Assembly: GCA_913055155.1 (NCBI GenBank) | Contig: CAJXJR010000004.1 | Location: forward strand, 1-64,000 | Direction of reading: 5' to 3' | DNA: 64,000 nucleotides | From: an uncultured Erythrobacter sp. | GTDB lineage: Bacteria > Pseudomonadota > Alphaproteobacteria > Sphingomonadales > Sphingomonadaceae | Shown: one piece after another, positions 14,583 through 33,395 of the stretch | How the letters are laid out: each line of letters begins with the position of its first letter | How positions within the stretch are numbered: position 1 is the first letter of the stretch | Position numbers and translations under genes: made by a program | The notes under the pieces: generated by a model | Databases searched by the model: none | What the model saw: only the letters and a program-made list of their open reading frames with translations | Told to the model about the DNA's origin: nothing

Positions 14583-16067
14583 TTAGCCTTTAACAGTCTG
14601 AAAATTAGCGCCCTTTGGCCGCCAATTGCCTGAAGCACGCTTGGGTGCTGGCCGCTCCGCAGCCATCTCCCGACGCAGGCGCTGCTGAAACCAGTCGAGC
14701 GCCTGGCTTGTACTATCGACCTGATCGTCGTGCCTGGTATTCGGAAATCCGAGCAGTTCCTGCTGATAGGCCGCGAGCCAGGGCGCCTCGCGAGGAAAGA
14801 GCACCTTACCGGTCTCAATGAGGACCGCACGCGCCTGCATGCGCTCGATCTTGGCAAGCCTGGGCTTCACCAGTTGCGGCCGGCAGACCAACGAGTTGCT
14901 GCGCAGCGACTGGACAATCGCCCGCCCAAGATCACCGTCCTCAACCAGCGTCAGATCACTTTCATAACTGCGATGCGTTTCCTCGATCAGGTGGATCAGC
15001 TCGGGGCTTTCCATCTTCTCGCGGATCACGTCGCGCAAGTAGAACTCACCGTCAGCATACCCCCACACGGTTCCCACCGACCAGTCACTGGTCTCGGCCA
15101 GCGTCGAAGCGGTATCCCAGCTCACGACGGTGGTTTCGAACTCTTCAGGCGCCTCGTCATAGTAGCGCAGCCACTGGCGACGGATGGCCACACCCTGATC
15201 GGGAACGGGCTGCTGCTGGTACTGCGCGCTGAACGCAAGACCGCCCATGATGCGTTTCTGCCGCTCCAGTTCTGCGTGATCCATGCGCTCAGGCTGGATA
15301 GGCTCACCCTTGGAGCGCACATGGATCCGACCATTACCGAGGTCCCATTCCTCGTCCGCGACTGCAGTCGCGGAAATGGTGATCTGGCGATAATCCTCCT
15401 GCTTGAGCAAATGCCCGGCAAGGTCATCTTCGTGCAGGCGCTGCATCACACAGATGATCGCGCTTTTCTTCGGATGATTGAGCCGGGTCGAGATGACGTT
15501 GTCCCAGGTACTGATGACCTTCTCGCGCGCCACGCGCGAGAAGATTTCTTGTCCCTTGTTAGGGTCGTCAAGGATGATCACGTCGGCCCCGCGGCCGAGC
15601 ATGCTGCCATCAACCGAGGTGGCGAGCCGGTAACCACCTTGCGTGGTGCGGTATTCCAGTTGACGGTTCTGCGCGGGCGATTGACAGTCCGGAAAAGCCC
15701 GGCGGTACGATGCGGACCGCATGATGCGCTGGAATTGAACCGCTTGCGCCTTCGCCACCTCCTGGCTGTAGGTTACGCACATAATACGCCGTGACGGGTC
15801 TTGACCGAGCACGAAGGCCGGAAAGGCGATACTCACCATGATCGACTTGAGGTTGCGTGGGGGCAGGTTGATCATAAGGCGCAGGTCAATCCCCTGCATC
15901 ACGTTTTCGAGTGCATTCGCGATGACCTCAAGGTGCCAGTTCTCAGTGTAATCGGTTCCAGGTTCGAGCTCTTCCATCACTTGCGCGGTAAAGGTCAGAA
16001 AGTCTTCGCGGCGCATCGTGTCCAGATACTCGACCGGCAGCGAGACCAGCTCAGCCTGGTCATTCAT
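14583..16067 (-). CDS. phage terminase large subunit
   Basis: This is a TerL-type packaging ATPase/nuclease of about 494 residues. The ATPase has the loop INLPPRNLKSIMVS (Walker A-like), the coupling region VTYSQEVAKAQAVQFQRIM, and Walker B VIILDDPNKGQE. The C-terminal nuclease half begins at TVVSWDTAST, with the metal-binding aspartates in that motif and in LVEDGDLGRA. I chose the ATG at 16067; ATGAATGA makes an 8-base overlap with the DUF5681 gene. The protein appears full length, but no portal, protease or capsid genes follow, so it is an orphan. Confidence 0.9.
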   Translation of the reverse strand: MNDQAELVSLPVEYLDTMRREDFLTFTAQVMEELEPGTDYTENWHLEVIANALENVMQGIDLRLMINLPPRNLKSIMVSIAFPAFVLGQDPSRRIMCVTYSQEVAKAQAVQFQRIMRSASYRRAFPDCQSPAQNRQLEYRTTQGGYRLATSVDGSMLGRGADVIILDDPNKGQEIFSRVAREKVISTWDNVISTRLNHPKKSAIICVMQRLHEDDLAGHLLKQEDYRQITISATAVADEEWDLGNGRIHVRSKGEPIQPERMDHAELERQKRIMGGLAFSAQYQQQPVPDQGVAIRRQWLRYYDEAPEEFETTVVSWDTASTLAETSDWSVGTVWGYADGEFYLRDVIREKMESPELIHLIEETHRSYESDLTLVEDGDLGRAIVQSLRSNSLVCRPQLVKPRLAKIERMQARAVLIETGKVLFPREAPWLAAYQQELLGFPNTRHDDQVDSTSQALDWFQQRLRREMAAERPAPKRASGNWRPKGANFQTVKG

Positions 16068-16515
16068 CACCCACTTCTCCTTTGCCGCCGACCCCTCCCT
16101 TGCGCATGAGGAACTGCAGCACTTGCTCCAGGGGAACAGCCGCGTAGTCCGCGGTATCATCGTGCCTAGGAGGCGGAAGCTGTTTCAGCAGGGTGCTGCG
16201 CGCCCTGTGATCTCCCTTGAGCGCATCGTTGACCATGGACTTTGCCAGCGCTTCACGCTTGGTCAGCCTGATAGTCTTGCCCCCTTCGGTGACCGTCATT
16301 TCCTGATCGAGCTCAGCTTCGATGAGTTTCTGGAGCACGCGATCCTTGCGCGGGCGCCCGTTGGGATTGCCCGACTGGCCCGGCTTGAAGCGGGTGTCCC
16401 TGGACGGACCATCTGCGCCTGTCGCCGTGCTGTTCCTGCTGCGCTTGTGCATGGGCTTGGCTGCAGCAGGCTGCTTCCCGTTGCTGGCGGAGGATTTCGG
16501 AGGTTTCCGGGCCAT
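16060..16515 (-). CDS. DUF5681 domain protein (terminase-associated)
   Basis: The 151-residue protein carries the DUF5681 core RFKPGQSGNPNGRPRKDRVL near residues 42-61 after a basic, low-complexity N-terminus. Proteins of this domain commonly sit just before TerL and are suspected to be small-terminase-like DNA-binding subunits; this is inference. It shares one base with the upstream methylase stop region and overlaps TerL by 8 bases, so the three are one coupled unit. Confidence 0.8.
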   Translation of the reverse strand: MARKPPKSSASNGKQPAAAKPMHKRSRNSTATGADGPSRDTRFKPGQSGNPNGRPRKDRVLQKLIEAELDQEMTVTEGGKTIRLTKREALAKSMVNDALKGDHRARSTLLKQLPPPRHDDTADYAAVPLEQVLQFLMRKGGVGGKGEVGDE

Positions 16516-17903
16516 CAGTCATCCTCCTCGTCACAAGGCTGATGACCAACAATATCCACTCCGCGTTCCGCGGCGACATCGGTCCAGCTCTTGCCGCTTT
16601 CGGCATGCATCGCTTCCTGGCCGGTCTTGGCCTGCCAGCGCTCGATCGCCTTGTCGCAGCAGCCAGGATCGATCTCGATCAGCCGTGCCTGCCGGCCGGT
16701 ATGCTGGGCTGCCATCAGCGTCGAACCAGACCCGGCAAAGGCATCAAGAACAATGCCGCCCCGACGCGAGCAATCGCGCAGCGCATCAGCGATCAGGGCA
16801 ACCGGCTTCGACGCCCGATGCTCCGCGAATTCTTCATCGCCGTCGTAGGCCCAGACGTTGGTCCGATACCTACTGGCATCGCCCGATGCGACGTTGTTGA
16901 TCGGCGGTCCGTTACCGACCTGCCAAACGTAAATGAGCTCGTGCTGCGAACGGTAGCAGCTACCCGCACTAGCGTTGTTCTTGTGCCAGACAACGAGATC
17001 ACACAGCCGCGGATAGACCGCCTCTCCAGCACTGAGCATCGCGCGCTGATGGCGCCAGTCCGCACAGTGGTAATGGATCGAACCATCAGCGCTGAAACGC
17101 GACATCAGGGCAAAGATGCTGCTCAGAATGCTGGCAAGCTCAAGCTCGTGGTTCCCGCTGGTGACCATCTCGCTTCCTGCGCGCTCCACGCTCGCAGTAT
17201 CGTCCATGGTCTCGCTGCAGGGCGGTGTGCAGAACACGATCTGCGCTCGTTCCCGCCCCATCAATATCCGATAACTCTGCTCCTCAAGTGCATTGCCGCA
17301 ATAGAGGCGGTGCTTACCCAGCTGCCACAGGTCTCCCCGCAGCGAGACCGGTTGATGAGAGGGTAGGCCAGGAAGCGTGCGCTCAGCCGCTTCGGTCTCG
17401 ATCAGCAGGCCGTCGATCTCGCCCATCGTAAAACCGGTAAGTTCAAGATCGAGATCGACGTTAAGCTCGAGCTCGGCGAACTCCAGCCGCAGCGCCTCGC
17501 GATCCCACTCGCCCAGCTCACCGAGCTTTTCTTCGGCGATGGCATAGATTCGCAGCTGCTCGTCGCTGAGATGTGAAATCGTGATCGTGGGCACCTCTTC
17601 GAGGCCCAGATCGACGGCAGCGCGCCAACGAGCGTAACCGCAGACAATGCGTCCCTCCGGGGTGATCAGAAGAGGGTCAAGATTGCCACATTCCTTGATG
17701 ACAGCGCGAATGGCAGCATCCTGCCGCGTGTTCACCTTACGCAAGCGGCGCGGCGGCGGGGTCAATTCACCGATCGGGCGGTAGACGATCTGGAGAGCGA
17801 GGCCGTGGTTGGGGTCGTTGGGACGGCTCGTCTCGTTGGATTGTGGTGATGGAGAGGATTGCAGGTCGACCTTGCGCCGACGCATACGAACAGGAGTTTT
17901 CAT
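16515..17903 (-). CDS. ParB-like domain plus DNA methylase, degenerate catalytic motif
   Basis: From the ATG at 17903 (462 residues) the N-terminal part is a ParB/Srx-like domain (IVCGYARWRAAVDLGLEEVP), and the C-terminal part is an amino-methyltransferase of the kind often found beside phage terminases. The SAM-binding motif is intact (VLDAFAGSGSTLMAAQ). The catalytic motif, expected as DPPY or NPPY, reads CTPPC (TPPC at 226-229 from this start; bases 17217-17228). The enzyme may therefore be inactive or altered. The gene opens the cassette with DUF5681 and TerL. Confidence 0.8.
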   Translation of the reverse strand: MKTPVRMRRRKVDLQSSPSPQSNETSRPNDPNHGLALQIVYRPIGELTPPPRRLRKVNTRQDAAIRAVIKECGNLDPLLITPEGRIVCGYARWRAAVDLGLEEVPTITISHLSDEQLRIYAIAEEKLGELGEWDREALRLEFAELELNVDLDLELTGFTMGEIDGLLIETEAAERTLPGLPSHQPVSLRGDLWQLGKHRLYCGNALEEQSYRILMGRERAQIVFCTPPCSETMDDTASVERAGSEMVTSGNHELELASILSSIFALMSRFSADGSIHYHCADWRHQRAMLSAGEAVYPRLCDLVVWHKNNASAGSCYRSQHELIYVWQVGNGPPINNVASGDASRYRTNVWAYDGDEEFAEHRASKPVALIADALRDCSRRGGIVLDAFAGSGSTLMAAQHTGRQARLIEIDPGCCDKAIERWQAKTGQEAMHAESGKSWTDVAAERGVDIVGHQPCDEEDD

Positions 17904-18646
17904 GGGGAAAGGATCCCTTCGAATACCGGCAGCCGCTCGAAAGGAAGCACGCTCGCACTGAGGCAAAGCTGCTTGTCTTTCAGCTGCTCTCGGGATCCGA
18001 ATTGATCCGAATGCTGCTCACCTGACACTGCCATGGCCTGTCAGATGCAAGGTTCTATCTGCCTCTGCGCAGACTCGAAGTCAAGCCTTAAGTTTCTGAT
18101 TTAATTGACAATGAATCTGTTGCATGCCGCCAACTGAAGGACAGCCATTCCTGTTTCTCGGAAACAGGAAAAGGATTTCACGGGGGGCAAGTCTCTGTTC
18201 TTTAATCGGAAAGCGCACCAATGTGCATGCAGGACAAGCGAAATGCGCCCTGTTTTTCCGGCCATAACAGGAAACTGCAAAATCGCTTGTCACCACCCCC
18301 TGCACGATAAGTCCATGGAATCCCGATTCATCAGGGTCGCATCCTCGTGAGTTGTCAGCAGCGGGTACGGTTTCGGGTCGGGGCGCTAACTAACGGATAG
18401 TCAGCGATATCAGATATTCGGGATGCTTGAGCGCAGCGGTTGGGCTGCGATGGGCTCGAAGAGCTTCATCTGGCGCCTATTCTTGGCGCCCAACGCAGTT
18501 CGCAACAATCACGAGCCACTTTCAGACGGATCGACCATCCCCCCGTATACGGATATATGTGCAAGAGCAGTCGCCAAACCTTTACGTTGCTTGCGACCTC
18601 GTGCAGCTTGCTGACGAACCTAACCTGAAGGTCCCGATAGATCCTG
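17904..18646. other. about 740-base region with no firm gene
   Basis: Several short frames overlap here in different phases. One plus-strand frame (18427-18654) ends with the protein-like IRIYVQEQSPNLYVACDL and runs into the next small frame, but it has no recognisable family. I see no firm gene and no clear terminator. Confidence 0.35.
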
Positions 18647-20295: not shown

Positions 20296-20369
20296 TGGAT
20301 GCCCCGTGAGGATTCGAACCTCAATTGACGGAGTCAGAGTCCGTAGTCTTACCATTAGACGACGGGGCA
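20296..20369 (-). tRNA. tRNA-Gln (anticodon CTG)
   Basis: The minus strand folds as a tRNA. The acceptor stem is TGCCCCG/CGGGGCA. The anticodon stem is ACGGA/TCCGT around the loop CTCTGAC, giving anticodon CUG for CAG codons. The T arm is TGAGG-TTCGAAT-CCTCA and CCA is encoded at the 3' end (20296-20298). It sits where the low-GC left half meets the GC-rich right half, a usual insertion site for islands. Confidence 0.95.
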
Positions 20370-20902: not shown

Positions 20903-21889
20903 TCAAGCGGAGCAGCTCGCCCCGCCCAGCACGCAGAAGCGGGCGCAATGCGGGTGGTTGAGCGGAACCTCGCGGTCGGCCTCGGCCACCGTGTCGCCAA
21001 GGTCGAAGCCCGGATCGTAGGGCAGCAGGGTGCAGGCAACGACGCGCGGGGTCGGCTCTCCCTTGCGGTGCACCACCATGCGGCTGCTGGCGCACATCAC
21101 CTCGTCCGGCGACTTGCCGAGAATGTCCCAGCAGCCGGTGGTGATTTCGGCAATGTCGGCATCGGCATCCATTTCCGGAAACAGCACCAGCCGCGCCGGA
21201 TCGGCCGTGTCGATGGCGATCCCCTCTGCTGCGAACAGCGCGGCATAGGCAGCGCGCGCCTCTCCCTCGCTTTCGCCCGCCAGGTGTCGCCCGGCCGCCG
21301 CCAGTGAAAAGCCGTGGTCCGACAGCCAGCGCAAGCCCGCCAGCATCGGTTCCCAGCTGCCCGGCCCCCGCTCGGCCTCGTGCACGGCCCTCGTGTGGTG
21401 ATCGACGGAGACGCGGATCGTCAGCTTGCCGCCATAGGCCTCGCGCAAGCGCAGCAGCGCGCTCTCATGGCGGCGCATGGGCGCCATCGCGTTGGAAAGC
21501 ACCAGCACCTCGTGCCCGCGCGACAGGGCATCCTCCACCATCGCGATGATGTCGGGATTCATGAACGGCTCGCCGCCTGTAAAGCCGATCTCGCGCACGC
21601 CCATCCCGGCGATTTCATCGAGGAACCGCGCCACGTCCTGCGCCGCCATGTAGACCAGCGCATCGTTGGTGGGGCTGCTTTCGATATAGCAGTTGGCGCA
21701 AGCAAGGTTGCACAGCGTGCCGGTGGCAAACCACAGGGTATCGAGGTGGCGCAGCCCCACATGCGCGCGCGGCTCTCCCTTGGCGGTCACCAACGGGTCG
21801 GTGAACTTGGCGGGCAGCAGGCGCTTGCCATCAACCGCGAATGGCGAAGGCCCGGCAGGCGCGTTGCGGCTTTTCGAACGGCTCGCCAT
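20903..21889 (-). CDS. radical SAM protein in arsenic-type cluster
   Basis: The 328-residue radical SAM enzyme binds the [4Fe-4S] cluster through CNLACANC (CxxxCxxC), followed by GFTGGEPFMNPDI (GGE motif). The C-terminal portion holds further cysteines (TTGCWDIL, VMCASS, VVACTL, HCARFCVLGGASC), which could bind auxiliary clusters. It does not look like ArsS, the radical SAM enzyme of arsenosugar synthesis, whose core is different. The ATG at 21889 shares one base with the stop of the flavoprotein gene (TGATG), so the two are co-translated. Reaction unknown. Confidence 0.82.
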   Translation of the reverse strand: MASRSKSRNAPAGPSPFAVDGKRLLPAKFTDPLVTAKGEPRAHVGLRHLDTLWFATGTLCNLACANCYIESSPTNDALVYMAAQDVARFLDEIAGMGVREIGFTGGEPFMNPDIIAMVEDALSRGHEVLVLSNAMAPMRRHESALLRLREAYGGKLTIRVSVDHHTRAVHEAERGPGSWEPMLAGLRWLSDHGFSLAAAGRHLAGESEGEARAAYAALFAAEGIAIDTADPARLVLFPEMDADADIAEITTGCWDILGKSPDEVMCASSRMVVHRKGEPTPRVVACTLLPYDPGFDLGDTVAEADREVPLNHPHCARFCVLGGASCSA

Positions 21890-23304
21890 CAGAGCGCCCG
21901 CCGCATCCGGGCCAGCAGACCGGCCCAGCGTTTGGGCCAGGTGCCGAACACGGTCGGCTCCCAAGCCTTGAACGCCGCCGCCTTCACGATCTCCACCCGC
22001 GTGGGATAGGAAATCACCGCCCCGCCCATGTCGAAGGTGCCGCTCTTGCCAGTAATCAGCTGCGTGAAGGGCAGCAGCAATTCGCCGGCATTGACCCCGC
22101 ATATGGACGCGCCGACAACTTTCTTCCCCTTCAGCATGACCTTGCAATGCCCCTGATCGGTCCCTTCGGCAATGGCCCGGTCATTGTGGTCGAAATGCTC
22201 GGTAACGACGCGCAAGGCATCTCCGTAGGCATCGCGCGCTTCGCTTTCGGTCATGCCGACCTGCGCCACTTCGGGCTCGGTATAGGTGCACCAGGGCAAC
22301 GCTCGCCAGTCGACCTTGGTCGGCATGCCCAGCGCGATTTCCAGCACCACGTTGGAGCCTTCGTAGCCCGAGACATGGGTCAGCCGCGGCCCTTCGCGGC
22401 AATCGCCGATGGCATAGATGTGCTTCAGGTTCGTGCGCCGCCGCGCATCCACCTTGATGCCGTTCCCGCCCAGTTCGATGCCCAGTTCCTCCAGCCCGTA
22501 ACCCTTGGTGCGCGCCTTGCGCCCCACGGCCACCAGCAGGTGCGTGCCGGCAATCGCTTCGCCGCCTCCCGTGGTTACAGTGATTGCGCCGGCTCCGCCC
22601 GAAACCTTCGCGGCCTTGCCGGTGACAAAGCGCACGCCCTCGCCTTCCATCACCGCCTTCACCAAAGCCACGCTGTCGCGATCATCGCGGCTCATCAGTT
22701 CGCCCGGCTCGATCACCGTGACCTGGCTACCAAGCCGGCGGAAGCTCTGCGCCATTTCCATGCCGATCACTCCCCCGCCCACGATGACAAGGTGGTCCGG
22801 CTGCTCGGTCAGTTCGAACAGGTTCTCGTTGGTGAGGTAAGGCACTTCGGCCAGCCCCTCGATCGGCGGCGCCGCGGGGCCGGAGCCTGTGGCAATGACG
22901 ATTCGCGGCGCGGTCAGCGTGCGTCCGTCCACCGCGACCGATTTCGGCCCTGTCAGCCTGGCCCAGCCCAGGATCACCTCGCAGCCCATGTCCTCGAACC
23001 GCTCTACCGAATCGTGCGGCTCGATCCGTTCGATGGCGTGGTGCACGTGGCGATGCACCGCGCTCCAGTCCACCACAGGCGCGGCCAGTTGCACCCCGGC
23101 ACGCTTTTCCTCGCGCGCTTCGGCGGCGCGCCGGGCCGCCGCGATCAGCGCCTTCGACGGCACGCAGCCGTTGTTCAGGCACTCGCCGCCCATCTTGTTG
23201 CCCTCGATCAAGGCAGTCTTTAGGCCAAATAGCGCGCAGCCGCCGGCTGCGGTAAGTCCTGCAGCACCGCCGCCGATCACGATCACGTCATGCGTGTATT
23301 CCAA
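21889..23304 (-). CDS. mercuric-reductase/lipoamide-dehydrogenase-like flavoprotein
   Basis: The protein of about 471 residues has the pyridine nucleotide-disulphide oxidoreductase layout. The FAD site is VIVIGGGAAGLTAAGG and the redox-active disulphide is GGECLNNGCVPSKAL. The NAD(P)H site is LVIVGGGVIGMEMAQ, with TNLKHIYAIGDC and a C-terminal dimerisation domain. The usual HxHPTxxE motif is replaced by ISYPTRVEI. I chose TTG 23304 (preceded by GGGGAG) because the longer frame to 23376 adds residues outside the fold. Upstream lies the divergent arsM-like gene, about 100 bases away. Its electron acceptor is unknown; a metalloid or disulphide is plausible. Confidence 0.85.
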   Translation of the reverse strand: MEYTHDVIVIGGGAAGLTAAGGCALFGLKTALIEGNKMGGECLNNGCVPSKALIAAARRAAEAREEKRAGVQLAAPVVDWSAVHRHVHHAIERIEPHDSVERFEDMGCEVILGWARLTGPKSVAVDGRTLTAPRIVIATGSGPAAPPIEGLAEVPYLTNENLFELTEQPDHLVIVGGGVIGMEMAQSFRRLGSQVTVIEPGELMSRDDRDSVALVKAVMEGEGVRFVTGKAAKVSGGAGAITVTTGGGEAIAGTHLLVAVGRKARTKGYGLEELGIELGGNGIKVDARRRTNLKHIYAIGDCREGPRLTHVSGYEGSNVVLEIALGMPTKVDWRALPWCTYTEPEVAQVGMTESEARDAYGDALRVVTEHFDHNDRAIAEGTDQGHCKVMLKGKKVVGASICGVNAGELLLPFTQLITGKSGTFDMGGAVISYPTRVEIVKAAAFKAWEPTVFGTWPKRWAGLLARMRRAL

Positions 23305-23405
23305 GGAGTTCTCCCCAGCCCGGTAATGGGCGTAACCTTTCCAGGATGGCCGACGAAGCTTCCAGCGTCCATGCATCCTTTCGGACCTGAGGGAAAAACA
23401 GTTTC

Positions 23406-24455
23406 ATGAACCTAGAGAATTCGCAGAATTACTACGGCAAGGTGCTGGAAGGATCGGGCGACCTGCGCACCGATGCCTGCTGCACATTCGAAATGCCTTC
23501 GCCTTCGGTGCGCGAGGCGCTGCGCAACGTGCACGAGGAAGTGAAGGCGCGCTACTACGGCTGCGGCCTGGTCGTGCCGCAGGCGCTGGAAGAGGCCCGG
23601 GTGCTCGACCTGGGTTCGGGCAGCGGGCAGGATGCCTACCTGCTGGCGCAGCTGGTGGGCCCGAACGGCAGCGTCACCGGCGTCGATGCCACGCCCGAAC
23701 AGTTGGCCGTGGCCAATGCCCACAAGCAATGGCACGCTGATCGCTTCGGCTTTGCCAATGTCGATTTCGTCGAGGGCGATATCGTGAAGCTCGACCAGCT
23801 GGGGCTGGAGCCGGAAAGCTTCGACGTGATCGTCTCCAACTGCGTCATCAACCTGGTGGCAGACAAGCCCGCCGTGTTCGCCGCCGCGCACAAGCTGCTG
23901 AAGCCGGGTGGAGAGCTGTATTTCTCCGATGTCTATGCCGACAGGCGGGTGCCCGCGCAGCTGCTGAACGATCCGGTGCTGCACGGCGAATGCCTTTCCG
24001 GCGCGCTGTACTGGGGCGATTTCGACCGCATCGCCAAGGCTGCGGGCTTCGCCGATCCGCGCCTTGTCACCGACCGTCCGATGGCGATCAACGATGCCGA
24101 AATTGCCGCAAAGCTGGCCGGCATCAACTTCGTCTCCGCCACCTATCGCCTGTTCAAGCTGGCCGGCCTGGAGCCGCAGTGCGAGGACTATGGCCAGGCG
24201 GTGGTCTACAAGGGCACCGTGCCCGAGAACGAGGCCATGTTCGAGCTGGATGCCCACCACGCGATAGAAGCAGGGCGCGTGTTCCCCGTGTGCGGCAACA
24301 GCTGGCTGATGCTGGCGGAAACACGCTTTGCCCCGCATTTCGACTTCATCGGCGATTTCAGTCGCCATTACGGCGTCTTCCCCGGCTGCGGCACTGCCGT
24401 GCCCTTCGGCCAGTCGGACGCCAATCCAGCCAAGCCGGAGGCGCCGTGTTGCTGA
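23406..24455 (+). CDS. arsM: ArsM-like arsenite methyltransferase
   Basis: The 349-residue methyltransferase has SAM motif I VLDLGSGSGQDAYL (residues 67-80). It also has the cysteine positions characteristic of ArsM: YYGCG (C53), SNCVINL (C146) and GECLSGALYWGDF (C196), plus an N-terminal pair DACC (C25, C26) and a terminal CC. Cys53, Cys146 and Cys196 correspond to the As(III)-binding thiols known from algal ArsM. The enzyme would methylate arsenite with SAM. It divergently faces the flavoprotein gene, and its last 10 bases overlap the SDR gene, so it is translationally coupled to it. Confidence 0.88.
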   Translation: MNLENSQNYYGKVLEGSGDLRTDACCTFEMPSPSVREALRNVHEEVKARYYGCGLVVPQALEEARVLDLGSGSGQDAYLLAQLVGPNGSVTGVDATPEQLAVANAHKQWHADRFGFANVDFVEGDIVKLDQLGLEPESFDVIVSNCVINLVADKPAVFAAAHKLLKPGGELYFSDVYADRRVPAQLLNDPVLHGECLSGALYWGDFDRIAKAAGFADPRLVTDRPMAINDAEIAAKLAGINFVSATYRLFKLAGLEPQCEDYGQAVVYKGTVPENEAMFELDAHHAIEAGRVFPVCGNSWLMLAETRFAPHFDFIGDFSRHYGVFPGCGTAVPFGQSDANPAKPEAPCC

Positions 24456-25495
24456 AGGTTCTTGTCACGGGTGCTGCCGGGCTGATCGGCGGCGAAGTCT
24501 GCGCCCGGCTGGCGGCGCGCGGGCACACGGTCACGGCCATGGTGCGCAAGACCCGCGAGGTGCGCGGCAACGATGGCGCGCAGGTCGAAGGAGTGCAGGT
24601 CCTCTCCGGCGATATCACCCGGCCGCTGATGGGGCTGGACCCGTCAGCCATCGATGCAGACCTGGTGATCCATTGCGCCGCCAACCTGGAATTCGATGCG
24701 CCCCTGCCCACGCTGGCGGCGGTGAATGTAGAGGGAACGCGCAACGCGCTGGCTTTCGCCAAGGCGGCAGGCGCGGGCTTCCTGCATGTTAGCACCGCCT
24801 ATGTCTGCGGCCAGCGAGACGGGCCGATTGCCGAAGGCGCGGTGCGCAGCGGCACGCGCTTCACCAACAATTACGAAGCCAGCAAGGCCCTGGCAGAAGC
24901 GGCGGTGGCGGCCAGCGGCGTGCCATGCGCCGTAGCCCGCCCCTCGATCGTGCTGGGCGACCACGCCAAGGGCGCGATCCGCGATTTTCCCTCGCTGTGC
25001 ACCGTGTTCCGACTGATGGCGCGAGGCAAGGTGGGGGTGTTCCCCACGCAAGATCAGGCGACGCTCGACCTGGTGCCGCTATGCTACGTGGCAGAAGGGA
25101 TCGCGCGGCTGGCCGAACGGTTCGACGCGGCGAAGGGTGGCTATTTCCACCTCGTTGCCAGCCAGCCGCTGCCTGCTGCCGAACTGGCGCACGGCGTGGC
25201 AAGGGTTGCGCATTTCCCCGATCCGCAAGTGGTCGACGCCGATGGCTTCGATGCGGGCAGACTGGGTTCGGCGGAACGGCAGCTGCTCACCCGCATGATG
25301 CGGACCTTCGGCCCCTATTTCACCCGCAACCCGCGCTTCGACGATACAAAATTCCGCGCGCTGACCGGGCTGGACTGTCCGGCGACGGACAGCGCCTGGC
25401 TCGACCGCCTGATCGCCTACGGCATCGCGGTGGGCTACTTGCCCAAAGCCGGGCCTAGCGAACGTCCGGGTAGTGCTTCTCGAGCCGCTGCCTAG
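24446..25495 (+). CDS. extended SDR oxidoreductase/epimerase-like
   Basis: The 349-residue protein starts at a GTG (24446) preceded by GGAGG and overlapping arsM by 10 bases. It has a Rossmann motif VTGAAGLIGGEV, an active-site-like STAYVCG stretch and the catalytic NNYEASKA (YxxxK), as in extended SDR proteins. It probably acts on a nucleotide sugar or thioester; the substrate is unknown. The last 41 bases overlap the convergent glycosyltransferase. Its coupling to arsM suggests a modified-sugar pathway. Confidence 0.82.
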   Translation: MLLKVLVTGAAGLIGGEVCARLAARGHTVTAMVRKTREVRGNDGAQVEGVQVLSGDITRPLMGLDPSAIDADLVIHCAANLEFDAPLPTLAAVNVEGTRNALAFAKAAGAGFLHVSTAYVCGQRDGPIAEGAVRSGTRFTNNYEASKALAEAAVAASGVPCAVARPSIVLGDHAKGAIRDFPSLCTVFRLMARGKVGVFPTQDQATLDLVPLCYVAEGIARLAERFDAAKGGYFHLVASQPLPAAELAHGVARVAHFPDPQVVDADGFDAGRLGSAERQLLTRMMRTFGPYFTRNPRFDDTKFRALTGLDCPATDSAWLDRLIAYGIAVGYLPKAGPSERPGSASRAAA

Positions 25496-26177
25496 TGCCG
25501 AAGGCCCACATAAGGCCCACCTTCAGGTAGATCCAGTTCGCCTTCAGCGCGCCCCATTCGGCAATCCGCCGGTCTGACGTGCGCACCGTGCGCGGCACCA
25601 GTCGCACCCGGCCAAGCTCGGCCATGCGGATGCACAGGTCGGCCTCCTCCATCACCTTTGCCTCCGGATCGCAGCCACCGGACTTGAGGAAGTCGGTCTT
25701 GCGAAAGAACATGGCATGGTCGCCGAACAGCAGCCGTGCGCCCTTGAAGAACAGCCGCGGGCGGAACAGCAGCGGCGCGTACCAGGTCTTGGCCAAGTTG
25801 TGCGCCGTGGTGCCCCAGCGCGTCTTTTCCCCGGTGATGATGGGGGTGAAGCCCGCCAGCGCGACCTTGGGATCGGCCAGCACCTGCTCGATCACCGCCA
25901 CCAAGTCCGGCGGCGGCACGGTATCGGCATGCAGCACGCAGACGTTGTGCGCCGTGGCCACCGCCACGCCCGCGTTGATCTGGCGCCCGCGCCCGCGCTC
26001 GGTCTCGATCACCCGCCAGCCCGCCTCCCTCACCAGCTGCACGGTACGATCGCCGCTGCCGCCATCGACCACCAGCACTTCGGCAGGCGGCGGATCGAGG
26101 CGCCCAACGTTGGCGATCAGTGCCGGCAGCGCGGCCTCTTCGTTGAGAGTCGGGACCAGCAGGCAGGTGTCGCTCAC
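25455..26177 (-). CDS. GT2 glycosyltransferase of the arsenosugar-associated type (TIGR04283-like)
   Basis: The protein begins VSDTCLLVPTLNEEAALPAL and has VDGGSGDRTVQLV and VLHADTVPPPDL, then FGDHAMFFRKTDF and EADLCIRM, all as in the TIGR04283 GT2 family named for arsenosugar biosynthesis clusters. I chose GTG 26177 because GTGA gives a 4-base overlap with the upstream gene stop; the frame extends to 26195. It should transfer a sugar to an arsenic-containing or related acceptor; this is inferred from family and context. Confidence 0.8.
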   Translation of the reverse strand: MSDTCLLVPTLNEEAALPALIANVGRLDPPPAEVLVVDGGSGDRTVQLVREAGWRVIETERGRGRQINAGVAVATAHNVCVLHADTVPPPDLVAVIEQVLADPKVALAGFTPIITGEKTRWGTTAHNLAKTWYAPLLFRPRLFFKGARLLFGDHAMFFRKTDFLKSGGCDPEAKVMEEADLCIRMAELGRVRLVPRTVRTSDRRIAEWGALKANWIYLKVGLMWAFGTRQRLEKHYPDVR

Positions 26178-26755
26178 GGCAGCAGCTCGGGCCACTTGGC
26201 CAGGTCTTCGGGCCTGTCGCAGTCGTCCAGCTGCTCCAGCAGGCGATAGGGCAGGTTAAGTGCCAGCAGGCGCTCTTCGGTCGCTTTCAGCATCCTTTCG
26301 GTGCCCCAAGGCATGTCGCGCCAGATTTGCGGGATTTCTTCCCTGAAACCAAGCAGGTAATAGCCGCCATCGCTGGCAGGGCCGATCACCGCCGGCACCT
26401 GTTCCAAAGCCCTCGCCGCATCGCGCAGGTGCCCCGCTGTCAGCCCCGGAATATCCGCCCCCAGCACCACGCCCGGCGCCGGGACTCGCGCCAGCCGCGC
26501 GCCAAGATCGCCCTCGCCCTGCTCCACCAGCGGCACGTCCTCGCCCAGCCAGGCGGCAAAGTCCTGCGCCGCAGCGCCGGTGAAATGGACCGCGAAGGGC
26601 AGTCCGCTGGCGCGCACCGTTGCCATGGTCCGCTCCACCAGGCGGCGGTGGAGATCGGCTGCGCCTTGCTCTCCCAGCAAGGGGGCAAGGCGGGTCTTCG
26701 CCATGCCTGCACGAGGATACTTCGCGATCAGCGCGATGGTCGGTGCCGTAGTCAT
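26174..26755 (-). CDS. DUF2064/TIGR04282-like sugar transferase of arsenosugar clusters
   Basis: The 193-residue protein has IALIAKYPRAGMAKTRLAPL, GVVLGADIPGLT and IGPASDGGYYLLGF, the hallmarks of the TIGR04282/DUF2064 group of small nucleotidyl/glycosyltransferases. It is co-oriented with the TIGR04283-like gene with a GTGA overlap. The start is ATG 26755; another in-frame ATG at 26785 has no better ribosome-binding site. Both members of this pair occur together in clusters with ArsM. The acceptor is not known. Confidence 0.8.
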   Translation of the reverse strand: MTTAPTIALIAKYPRAGMAKTRLAPLLGEQGAADLHRRLVERTMATVRASGLPFAVHFTGAAAQDFAAWLGEDVPLVEQGEGDLGARLARVPAPGVVLGADIPGLTAGHLRDAARALEQVPAVIGPASDGGYYLLGFREEIPQIWRDMPWGTERMLKATEERLLALNLPYRLLEQLDDCDRPEDLAKWPELLP

Positions 26756-26784
26756 GACGAGGGGTCTAACCGCTGGACGCGGCA

Positions 26785-27618
26785 TTGGCGACGCTTCATG
26801 CTCTGTCGATGGCTTCCCGACTCGCCAAGATCGCCGGTCTCGCCGCCGCAGGCGCCGCTGTCGGCACCCTGCTGCTGGCAGAGCGCGCGCGCCCATTGCG
26901 CAAGCAGACCCGCGAAGCCCTGCCGCGCCTTGCCCGCAACGGCGCCATGGGCGCGGCCTGCCAGGCCGTGATCATGGTGAGCGAGGGGCCGATCACCGAA
27001 GCGATCGCGCAGGAAAACAAGCGCCGCAAACGCGGCCTGCAACACGCCATCGGTGGCTGGCCGGGCCGGATCGCCGCCGTCCTGCTGATGGATTACACCT
27101 ATTACCTGTGGCACGTCGCCACCCACAAGGTGCCCTTCCTGTGGCGCTTCCACCGGGTCCACCACCTCGATCCCGACATGGACATGAGCACGGCGGTGCG
27201 CTTCCACGCCGCCGACATGCTCATCTCCACGCCCATGCGCATGCTGCAGGTGCGGATATCCGGCGCCGACCCGGAAACGCACAACCTGTGGCGCGGCTTC
27301 TTCCTCGGCTCGGTGCTGTTCCACCATTCCAACCTGCGCCTGCCCGAAAGCGTGGACGCGGCCCTGGCCAATGTCGTGACCACGCCCCGGCTGCACGGCA
27401 TCCACCACAGCCAGCGGCTGGACGAGATGGACAGCAACTGGAGCGCAGGCTTCACCTTGTGGGACAAGCTGCACGGCACCCTGCGCACCGACGTGCCGCA
27501 GGAGGAGATCACCATCGGCGTCGACGATCCGCTGGCAGAGCGCGACATTGCCCTGCTGCCCGCGCTGCAGGCCCCTTTCCGCGAGGCCCGCGAAACCGAC
27601 GAGTTCGCGCCCTCCTGA
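26785..27618 (+). CDS. sterol-desaturase/fatty-acid-hydroxylase family protein
   Basis: The 277-residue protein has the three histidine clusters of the non-haem di-iron family: HVATH, HRVHH and HGIHHS, with a further HHS (FHHSNLRL). Membrane segments are limited to the N-terminal part. Relatives hydroxylate or desaturate lipids, carotenoids or sterols. It is read away from the two glycosyltransferases, so a lipid product of the arsenic cluster is possible but unproven. Alternative start at ATG 26809. Confidence 0.82.
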   Translation: MATLHALSMASRLAKIAGLAAAGAAVGTLLLAERARPLRKQTREALPRLARNGAMGAACQAVIMVSEGPITEAIAQENKRRKRGLQHAIGGWPGRIAAVLLMDYTYYLWHVATHKVPFLWRFHRVHHLDPDMDMSTAVRFHAADMLISTPMRMLQVRISGADPETHNLWRGFFLGSVLFHHSNLRLPESVDAALANVVTTPRLHGIHHSQRLDEMDSNWSAGFTLWDKLHGTLRTDVPQEEITIGVDDPLAERDIALLPALQAPFREARETDEFAPS

Positions 27619-31249: not shown

Positions 31250-31732
31250 GTGAACGCGAAGCTTGAACCAGAAGCCTTCGCCATTGCGCCCGACCTGCTG
31301 GATTCGCCCGATGTGCTGGCGCTGCTGGAGCGGCACCTGGCGGAAATGCATGCCAACTCGCCCGCCTGCAAGGTGCATGCGCTGGATGCCACCCGCCTGA
31401 AGGAGCCCGGCGTTACCTTCTTCGCGGCGCGCAAGGGTGGCGAACTGGCGGCTGTTGGCGCGCTGAAGCGGCTGGGCAAGGGCCAGGGCGAGATCAAGTC
31501 GATGCGCGCCGCCGATGCCTTTCGCGGCACCGGCGCGGGCGAAGCTATCCTGCTGCGCCTGATCGCCGTGGCCCGCGCCGAAGGGCTGACATGGCTGGGG
31601 CTGGAGACAGGGCAAGGCCCGGTGTTCGAACCCGCACATGCACTCTACCGCAAGCACGGCTTCACCCCGTGCGATGCCTATGCCGACTACGTGATCGACG
31701 ACTTCAGCCTGTGCATGGGGATGCCCCTCTAG
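31250..31732 (+). CDS. GNAT family acetyltransferase
   Basis: The 160-residue protein has the GNAT core with the acetyl-CoA loop FRGTGAGEAILLRLI and a C-terminal ETGQGPVFEPAHALYRKHGF. It starts at GTG 31250, seven bases after the pheA stop, so it is probably in the pheA transcript. The substrate is unknown. Its stop overlaps the convergent halogenase gene by 4 bases. Confidence 0.8.
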   Translation: MNAKLEPEAFAIAPDLLDSPDVLALLERHLAEMHANSPACKVHALDATRLKEPGVTFFAARKGGELAAVGALKRLGKGQGEIKSMRAADAFRGTGAGEAILLRLIAVARAEGLTWLGLETGQGPVFEPAHALYRKHGFTPCDAYADYVIDDFSLCMGMPL

Positions 31733-33309
31733 GCCATTTCCCCGGTTGTCGTTTCCCGCGCCGCGCAGTTGCGGGCGATGAACTGGTCGTGCGGGGGCAG
31801 CTGGCTGGCGGCCTGGGCACATTCCGCGGCGATCCGGCGCACCTGCTGCGCGATGTCCGCGGGGTCTGCCCGGTCTGCCAGCGCATGCACGCCTTGCGGA
31901 AGGAAGCGCTGGCCGATCAGCATGCTGGCCCAGCTGCCGATCTGGAACAGGTGCCCGCCATCCACCGCCAGGTGGCCGCGTGCGCGCCAGACCTCCAGCG
32001 TCTCGGCCAGCGAATCCGGCACGTCCATGGCCCTGGTGTAACGCCAGAATTCGGAATCCTCGCGCTCGGTCAGCTTGTAGTGGGCGATGATGAAGTCACG
32101 CACCTGCTCCCACTCAGCACGGGTGCGGGCGTTGAACTGGTCGCGCAATTGCGGGTCCATGGCGCGGGTGGGAAACAACTCCACCAGCCGTTCCAGCGTG
32201 GACTGCACGAAGTGGATCGAGGTCGATTCGAGCGGTTCGAGGAAGCCCGACGACAGGCCCACGGCCACCACGTTGCCCACCCATGACCGCTCGCGTCGCC
32301 CGGTGCGGAACTTGACGAGGCGCGGCGTATCCAGCGCCTCGGTTTCGAGCGTTGCCAGCAGCCGCTCCTCCGCCTCGCTCTCGCTGGAAAAGGCACTGGC
32401 AAACACGTGGCCGTTGCCGGTGCGGTGCTGCAAGGGGATGCGCCATTGCCAGCCCACGGCGTGGGCAATGCCTTGCGTGTAGGGCTTGAGGCCACCCTCG
32501 GCCCGCTTCGATGGCACGGCCAGCGCGCGGTCGGAGGGAATCCATTTCGACCAGTCGGTCCACGGCTCGTCGAGCGCATCGCCCAGCAGGAGCGAACGGA
32601 AGCCCGAGCAGTCGATGAACAGGTCGGCCTCCAGCCGCCGCCCGTCCTCCAGCACCACGGCGGCGACGAAGCCGTTTTCGCCCTCGCGCTCCACGCCGGT
32701 AATGATCCCTTCGACACGGTCCACCCCGCGGCTTTCCGCCACCCGGCGCAGGTGCGCTGCATAAAGGTGCGCGTCGAAGTGATAGGCGTGGGTGTAGCGG
32801 TTCTTCAGCTGGGTCTTGTCCGGCCCCGACGGCGCAAAGCGATCCTGCGCGCAGGCGTGCCAGGCGACATGGCAGTGCTGCCATTGGGGATAGTCCGCGC
32901 CGCCATCGGCCTGGCGGCCCAGCAGCCACCAGTGGTGCAGCTTTACCAGCGCATCCAGCTCTCGCCCAACGGCGCCGAACTGGTGCAGGTACCTGTCACC
33001 CACGCGGCCCCAGTTGTGGAACTCGATCCCCAGCTTGAAGGTGCCGTTGGTTGCGGCGACGAACTGCCGCTCGTCCAGCCGCAGGAAGCGGTTGAACTTC
33101 TGCATCGGCGGGATCGTGGCTTCGCCAACCCCGACAATGCCGATGGCATCGCTTTCCACCAGCTGCACCTCAACATCGCGCGACAGCGCGGTGGCGAGCG
33201 TTGCCGCGGCCATCCAGCCGGACGATCCACCCCCCACCACCAGCACCTTGCGCACGTGCTCTTCGCGCGGGGACTGCAGGGCGTATTCGTCTTTGGAAAT
33301 CTGCGTCAT
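31729..33309 (-). CDS. flavin-dependent tryptophan-halogenase family protein
   Basis: The 526-residue protein has an FAD site VLVVGGGSSGWMAAA, a GEATIP box, the catalytic lysine (K92) in TNGTFKLGIEFHNW, the halogenase signature GWQWRIPL (WxWxIP) and FLEPLESTSIHF with the conserved glutamate. This is the PrnA/RebH family; many members in alphaproteobacteria have no known substrate. I chose ATG 33309 because AAAAGGA is well spaced. No flavin reductase or TonB receptor gene sits beside it, so its substrate cannot be guessed. Confidence 0.88.
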   Translation of the reverse strand: MTQISKDEYALQSPREEHVRKVLVVGGGSSGWMAAATLATALSRDVEVQLVESDAIGIVGVGEATIPPMQKFNRFLRLDERQFVAATNGTFKLGIEFHNWGRVGDRYLHQFGAVGRELDALVKLHHWWLLGRQADGGADYPQWQHCHVAWHACAQDRFAPSGPDKTQLKNRYTHAYHFDAHLYAAHLRRVAESRGVDRVEGIITGVEREGENGFVAAVVLEDGRRLEADLFIDCSGFRSLLLGDALDEPWTDWSKWIPSDRALAVPSKRAEGGLKPYTQGIAHAVGWQWRIPLQHRTGNGHVFASAFSSESEAEERLLATLETEALDTPRLVKFRTGRRERSWVGNVVAVGLSSGFLEPLESTSIHFVQSTLERLVELFPTRAMDPQLRDQFNARTRAEWEQVRDFIIAHYKLTEREDSEFWRYTRAMDVPDSLAETLEVWRARGHLAVDGGHLFQIGSWASMLIGQRFLPQGVHALADRADPADIAQQVRRIAAECAQAASQLPPHDQFIARNCAARETTTGEMA

Positions 33310-33395
33310 GCCCATCCTTTTGCGGATTTGTGCGCGGCGATGCAATGCACACCGTTGCGTCGCATGCGTGGCCGTGCAACCAAGGCTTTGTGACG

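Follow-up and report, generated by a model that had tools for sequence, protein, structure and literature searches.

The described system closest to the genes studied here is the ArsM–ArsS arsenosugar pathway. According to the available part of PMC12159101, arsenosugar biosynthesis includes adenosylation of arsenic. A second system, the arsinothricin cluster arsQML, comprises three genes and pairs an ArsM with a radical S-adenosylmethionine (SAM) enzyme, the noncanonical ArsL, a predicted aminocarboxypropyl transferase (available part of PMC8552651). Here, we analyzed a 64,000-nucleotide stretch (the window) of contig CAJXJR010000004.1 from the 3.1-Mb genome of an uncultured Erythrobacter sp., in which seven genes at 20903-27618 lie tightly packed and in part overlap; in order, they encode a radical SAM protein (-), a flavoprotein (-), ArsM (+), a short-chain dehydrogenase/reductase (SDR, +), a TIGR04283-like glycosyltransferase (-), a TIGR04282 transferase (-) and a fatty acid hydroxylase (+). 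These are all seven gene types that an initial annotation of the sequence had reported together. The locus shares with the ArsM–ArsS pathway an ArsM-type methylase, a radical SAM enzyme, both transferase families and a flavoprotein, but its radical SAM protein scores below the ArsS cut-off, and the SDR and the hydroxylase are added. Judging from gene content and homology, we consider it somewhat probable that these genes encode a pathway of the arsenosugar type whose ArsS step falls to another radical SAM family, as yet without a name, which would be a diverged counterpart of ArsS in function. What is new is that a gene set recognisable as arsenosugar-type contains this other family.

To compare the radical SAM protein with known families, we used hidden Markov models (HMMs), sequence profiles and predicted structure. 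On the ArsS model TIGR04167, the protein scored 60.4 bits against a cut-off of 300 and matched only profile positions 5-153 of 303, while the true ArsS of locus L158 reached 445 bits; ArsS orthology is ruled out, in line with the annotated dissimilarity to ArsS. Three sister-clade radical SAM proteins that were scanned likewise stayed far below 300 (40-52 bits). A search of the window's own genome with TIGR04167 found no ArsS there either, the sole other match reaching 22.9/300 bits. The best NCBIfam score, 96.7 bits, came from the Rv1681 model (NF049973), with which the protein shares the radical SAM core; membership in that family, whose cut-off is 380, is also ruled out (88-108 bits including the sister-clade proteins, profile positions 73-240 of 326 only), and no cut-off was reached among the best 25 of the 46 NCBIfam models matched. 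The closest folds to its AlphaFold model were BlsE (E 2e-11, template modelling score [TM] 0.53), SkfB and SuiB. Together with EpeE, these belong to the twitch/SPASM class, which has a cysteine-rich C-terminal region; they resemble the window protein in fold, but act on other substrates and share 11-19% identity with it. Searches of solved structures gave no function for the protein beyond its core. Its nearest named species, among the best 80 of 573 relatives, was Aurantiacibacter rhizosphaerae (78%), and the sole annotated plasmid match of the family carries the name "radical SAM protein" only. In the literature searched, whose coverage excluded most subscription papers, nothing was found on this family or on arsenosugar genes in Alphaproteobacteria; in the available part of PMC13188914, TIGR04167 appears only as a radical SAM selenoprotein.

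The protein carries the CX3CX2C motif, as ArsS does, at C68/C72/C75, and C-terminal cysteines at C261, C274, C294, C323, C327 and C334 (numbered in frame P0001, which begins 8 residues ahead of the likely ATG). Across 69 aligned relatives, C68, C72, C75, C261, C274, C294 and C323 were invariant, and C327 and C334 were conserved in at least 90%. The C-terminal cysteines had been put forward as extra relative to ArsS. They are present, but they do not appear to be extra: the ArsS of L158 has C233, C248, C284, C287 and C295, a pattern similar to C274, C294, C323, C327 and C334 of the window protein, paired by eye, with the profile alignment to two ArsS sequences reaching the core only. As the sign of a new variant, these cysteines were rejected on the basis of two ArsS clusters from one genus.

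We compared the locus with two ArsS clusters, L158 and L159, both from one genus. These share the order TIGR04282, TVP38, flavoprotein, ArsS (445 and 438 bits), MTAP-like phosphorylase and TIGR04283. The L158 phosphorylase and both transferases fell below curated cut-offs when trimmed stretches were scanned, the TIGR04283 partner reaching 141.5 vs 182 bits on a trimmed 191-residue stretch. The MTAP-like phosphorylase and TVP38 also occur with relatives of the window's radical SAM gene. Since both ArsS clusters carry a related flavoprotein, the suggestion that a flavoprotein sets the locus apart from ArsS clusters did not hold, albeit on one genus. Neither ArsS genome had an ArsM match at 1e-12.

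The other six proteins were assigned as follows. ArsM, of 349 residues, could be aligned along 331 residues with 5evj, an arsenite methyltransferase of solved structure, and C53, C146 and C196, the thiols named at the outset, align with cysteines of that structure; this match and the three cysteines together place it among the As(III) methyltransferases. It stayed below the NCBI subfamily cut-offs (NF008823 164/263, NF038099 87.5/400 and NF040538 130/500 bits). The two transferase types predicted initially fared differently under HMM search: the TIGR04282 protein cleared its cut-off (168 vs 134 bits), while the TIGR04283-like protein fell just short (171.6 vs 182 bits), with nearly the whole profile covered. 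The flavoprotein belongs to the pyridine nucleotide-disulfide oxidoreductases and has a CX4C redox pair. The mercuric reductase MerA carries a C-terminal cysteine pair, which is absent here, and the score on the MerA model TIGR02053 was under the cut-off (307/454 bits); the dihydrolipoyl dehydrogenase cut-off is missed as well. The AlphaFold model of the SDR (predicted local distance difference test [pLDDT] 92.6) was nearest to the thioester-reductase domains of polyketide synthase–nonribosomal peptide synthetase enzymes, and its fold and YxxxK motif agree with this, while its score on TIGR01746 was under the cut-off (100/213 bits, scanned in the longer frame 23990-25495). The di-iron protein said to join the cluster is indeed an FA_hydroxylase protein (79.4 vs 31 bits) with HX3H, HX2HH and HX2HH boxes (H110/H114, H123/H126/H127 and H204/H207/H208 in the frame from 26785), a real yet variable addition found in 17 of the 124 loci described next.

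These 124 radical SAM loci comprised 40 from 83 genomes of the order, the best 80 among 573 relatives confirmed in named genomes and 4 from searches of the class; the sample is uneven and includes close relatives. Within 7 kb of the radical SAM gene, we found TIGR04283-like genes in 60 loci, TIGR04282-like genes in 60, the flavoprotein in 48, the SDR in 31, ArsM in 30, MTAP in 18, and the hydroxylase and TVP38 in 17 each; both transferase types were present in 58 loci, over many tree branches. When matches were counted by tblastn at 1e-8, the 1,544 kb lying within 7 kb held 60 TIGR04282-like, 60 TIGR04283-like, 30 ArsM and 49 flavoprotein matches, whereas 510 kb farther out at the same loci held none of these; of all the families counted, a single hydroxylase was seen there. 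Clustering around the radical SAM gene is thus not due to chance. When only the 86 loci flanked by 6.5 kb or more on each side were considered, 44 had the TIGR04283-like gene (22 with ArsM, 22 without) and three others had ArsM but not the TIGR04283-like gene. ArsM lay between the flavoprotein and the SDR in 9 of the 11 ArsM-bearing loci of the window's own family that were examined. Nearby absence is not absence from the genome, since L042 (G203) and L043 (G065) have ArsM and the TIGR04283-like gene elsewhere in theirs.

The combination varied between lineages. L086, L087 and L137 had TVP38 and MTAP beside the window-type radical SAM gene; in L160, its neighbours included TVP38 and ArsM. In a sister clade (L066, L067, L069 and L070), runs linked to an extracytoplasmic function (ECF) sigma factor contained, in varying completeness, ArsM, TVP38, flavoprotein, TIGR04282, radical SAM, MTAP and TIGR04283 genes, and L066 and L067 held the sister-clade helper set in one run. 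The ECF sigma factor in these four loci had a putative zinc-finger anti-sigma partner; with one representative of each scanned, an ArsC-like low-molecular-weight protein (65/174 bits) was seen in L066 and L067 and a PHO4 phosphate transporter in L067, L069 and L070. The sigma factor, ArsC-like protein and PHO4 hint at stress-controlled uptake and use of arsenate. At six other loci (L052, L053, L055, L057, L058 and L061), again with one representative of each neighbour family scanned, the radical SAM gene lay near a pyridoxal phosphate enzyme of Cys/Met metabolism, ApaG, GTP cyclohydrolase I and TrkH, with no arsenic genes nearby. The class genome G389 had two radical SAM copies (L163/L164), one beside both glycosyltransferases and the other near a flavoprotein and TVP38. 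The radical SAM genes of L091 (a Klebsiella pneumoniae metagenome-assembled genome [MAG]), L095 (a Betaproteobacteria MAG) and L102 (Enemella evansiae) grouped with alphaproteobacterial ones, and these assemblies are possibly mislabelled or contaminated.

We then determined gene distribution in 296 genomes of the order (thresholds 1e-20 for the radical SAM gene, 1e-40 for ArsM and 1e-15 for the TIGR04283-like gene). The radical SAM gene was present in 83 genomes, 66 with the window type and 17 with the sister type (at most 40% identity). ArsM occurred in 49 genomes, 48 of which also had the radical SAM gene, the exception being G104 (69% complete; Fisher 2e-31 for the association, not corrected for relatedness). 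Likewise, 53 of the 56 genomes with the TIGR04283-like gene had the radical SAM gene, and in the window's own family the former was present in 48/48 radical-SAM-positive genomes and ArsM in 29/48. Sister-type genomes had ArsM in 14/17 cases, the remaining three being 62-83% complete. In a class set of 181 alphaproteobacterial genomes, with an ArsM threshold of 1e-12, the radical SAM gene was found in 49, an ArsM match in 19 and both in 15, so that ArsM accompanied 15/49 genomes with the radical SAM gene vs 4/132 without (p 8e-7). True ArsS occurred in two class genomes, which belong to a single genus and do not carry the radical SAM gene studied here; two genomes are too few to show that the two enzymes exclude each other. 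Seven of the 19 class ArsM matches were close neither to the window's ArsM nor to a second ArsM type; those scanned, L165 and L166, passed NF008823. The second type (L153-L157) has about 370-400 residues with an internal insert, seen by eye, and scored best on the arsinothricin ArsM model (368-379/500 bits; L153, L155 and L157 scanned); 7/8 class genomes carrying it also have the radical SAM gene.

The gene content, order, overlaps and motifs of the locus, its recurrence and the failure on the ArsS model were observed directly. From these we infer each chemical step of a pathway, the transferase and SDR/hydroxylase steps least firmly. ArsM would methylate As(III) to dimethylarsenite, and the flavoprotein would supply reducing thiols that keep the arsenic trivalent. 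The radical SAM enzyme would then cleave SAM and, like ArsS, join the 5'-deoxyadenosyl group to arsenic, after which an MTAP-type phosphorylase would strip adenine to yield 5-dimethylarsinoyl-ribose-1-phosphate. An adenosyl-transfer route would call for just such a neighbour of the radical SAM enzyme, a phosphorylase that accepts 5'-substituted adenosines. The TIGR04282 CofC-like protein would activate the sugar phosphate, a guess from a weak resemblance to CofC (34/105 bits), and the family 2 glycosyltransferase (GT2) TIGR04283 would hand the sugar to an acceptor. Finally, the SDR and the fatty acid hydroxylase, as lineage-specific tailoring enzymes that perhaps act on lipid, would trim the acceptor, possibly a lipid tail; it is from the hydroxylase and the acyl-reductase-like SDR that an arsenolipid product may be suggested.

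The arsenosugar-type reading is favoured by the in-cluster ArsM with its three thiols, by the near-constant presence of the radical SAM gene where the order has ArsM or the TIGR04283-like gene, by the association of ArsM with the radical SAM gene across the class, by the two transferase types lying near that gene in many branches of the tree, by the sister clade with its frequent ArsM and its ECF-linked runs, and by the recurrence of the helper kinds of L158/L159 with the window-type radical SAM gene. Several observations weigh against it. Homology to ArsS was demonstrated solely for the radical SAM core (probability 97.7, profile positions 58-206), which is common to many families. MTAP is absent from the window and common in the order (172/296 genomes); the copy in the window's genome lies elsewhere (G000:C6:153835-154701), and with usually one copy per genome at 1e-25, it probably serves methionine salvage too and was rejected as a cluster-specific enzyme. 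No TIGR04283-like gene lay within 7 kb in 64/124 loci, many of which had neither transferase, and nearly all sampled Rhodobacteraceae loci lacked nearby cluster genes and had other conserved neighbours instead (L103, titled Rhodobacteraceae, is an exception with both transferases). Outside the window's own family, 5/35 radical-SAM-positive genomes of the order matched the window's TIGR04283-like protein at 1e-15, a threshold that some diverged copies (L063-L066) do not reach. In that family, 19/48 radical-SAM genomes had neither ArsM (1e-40) nor the second type (1e-12), five of them giving weak matches only (1e-8 to 1e-10, in frames of 239-282 residues). That such genomes hold another ArsM was true of 9/13 ArsM-lacking order genomes outside the family and was rejected for these 19; with both types counted, ArsM was found in 43/66 window-type genomes and not detected in 23/66. 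Class-wide, 34/49 radical-SAM genomes lacked ArsM at 1e-12. ArsM is therefore optional, and many lineages carry the radical SAM gene without cluster neighbours. This may mean that methylated arsenic comes from outside, that the core has a different role now that ArsM is lost, or that it had nothing to do with arsenic from the start. The same question arises for the two ArsS genomes, which also lack a detectable ArsM, so that its absence is not decisive. The variant arsenosugar route proposed initially is upheld in part, as an arsenosugar-type gene set with a non-ArsS radical SAM enzyme, while a strictly arsenic reading is weakened by the ArsM-free relatives.

The alternative that survives best is a special form of the arsenosugar reading, its odds counted within those of the latter: ArsM-free lineages would use dimethylarsenic made by other organisms, and ArsM would be a removable front end. 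The core cysteines are invariant in all 69 sequences, including those of the ArsM-free L034, L079, L082 and L083, and the Qipengyuania loci L075-L077 (L075 from Qipengyuania aquimaris) retain the cluster without ArsM. On the other side, an uptake gene for methylated arsenic was not identified, though no search aimed at one was made; we regard this form as possible, at clearly less than even chances. Slightly more doubtful is a broader proposal, in which the radical SAM enzyme, two glycosyltransferases, flavoprotein and MTAP would be an ArsM-independent alphaproteobacterial core for adenosyl-derived sugars, working on others' arsenic or on another nucleophile, with ArsM, the acyl-reductase-like SDR and the hydroxylase as plug-ins that would turn it into a full arsenosugar or arsenolipid factory in some lineages. 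We think it unlikely that the product has nothing to do with arsenic, i.e., that the radical SAM–flavoprotein–SDR–glycosyltransferase core makes another sugar derivative or glycolipid, with the adenosyl group going to a different nucleophile and ArsM being an independent detoxification gene that came to lie alongside. The 19 ArsM-free genomes and the Rhodobacteraceae loci without any cluster gene speak for this, as does a quick radical SAM tree (SH-aLRT support only, no mixture model, 47/121 forks open), on which, for loci flanked by 4 kb or more on each side, ArsM needs 13 changes and TIGR04283 needs 9. However, the 48/49 co-occurrence in the order, the place of ArsM between flavoprotein and SDR, a sister clade that nearly always has ArsM, and helper kinds that match those of the two ArsS clusters argue against it. 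Finally, an arsinothricin-like route, in which the radical SAM enzyme would work like ArsL and attach the 3-amino-3-carboxypropyl group of SAM to arsenic, shares with arsQML the pairing of ArsM and radical SAM enzyme but is very improbable, given that ArsL is absent from the best 25 of 46 NCBIfam matches, that the window's ArsM falls far short of the arsinothricin ArsM model, and that the route, as set out in the available part of PMC8552651, leaves no place for sugar transferases.

Features of the locus in the window, with coordinates, strand and supporting evidence (scores in bits, with cut-offs after the slash)
Feature	Coordinates	Strand	Evidence
Radical SAM protein, CX3CX2C core, C-terminal cysteine-rich (twitch/SPASM-like) region	20903..21889	-	Radical_SAM 65.6; TIGR04167 60.4/300; AlphaFold pLDDT 91.8
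FAD-dependent pyridine nucleotide-disulfide oxidoreductase (PRK06370/MerA-like), CX4C pair	21889..23376	-	NF004991 385.5/620; Pyr_redox_2 211
Divergent intergenic region, flavoprotein/arsM	23377..23405	.	Coordinates; ~100 bp if flavoprotein start is 23304
ArsM-like As(III) S-adenosylmethionine methyltransferase	23406..24455	+	PDB 5evj E 6e-102; NF008823 164.2/263; C53/C146/C196
Extended SDR (NAD_binding_4), thioester-reductase-like fold	24449..25495	+	Y141/K145 of P0003 (YxxxK); Foldseek 4w4t E 1e-22, TM 0.80
TIGR04283-like glycosyltransferase (GT2)	25455..26195	-	171.6/182
TIGR04282 / DUF2064 CofC-like transferase	26174..26755	-	168/134; CofC TIGR03552 34.4/105
FA_hydroxylase-superfamily membrane di-iron protein, weakly OlsE-like	26809..27618	+	PF04116 79.4; NF052566 67.8/475; His boxes; open reading frame from 26785

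Overlaps join the flavoprotein to the radical SAM gene, whose ATG shares one base with the flavoprotein stop (TGATG), arsM to the SDR gene, whose likely start is a TTG overlapping the arsM stop, and the two transferase genes, where the TIGR04283-like gene probably starts at a GTG near 26177, overlapping the TIGR04282 stop codon. The seven genes therefore fall into three coupled pairs, with the hydroxylase on its own. The flavoprotein may start nearer 23304, and the TIGR04282 frame is open to 26896, with a likely start at 26755. Elsewhere in the window, phage-type genes at 14583-17966 (-) encode a Terminase_6C protein, a DUF5681 protein and a ParB_N/N6_N4_Mtase DNA methylase fusion, and with the tRNA-Gln at 20296-20369 they mark a possible prophage remnant. 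A flavin-dependent protein of the tryptophan-halogenase family lies at 31729-33345 (Trp_halogenase 580 bits).

The source of arsenosugars and arsenolipids in water is debated. If the arsenosugar-type reading is correct, a second radical SAM family would form the arsenic–carbon bond to ribose, and in Alphaproteobacteria this family is far commoner than ArsS (49 vs 2 of 181 genomes). Surveys that use the ArsS model would then overlook most candidate producers in the class, and bacteria of the Alphaproteobacteria would become candidate producers of these compounds that can be tested in culture.

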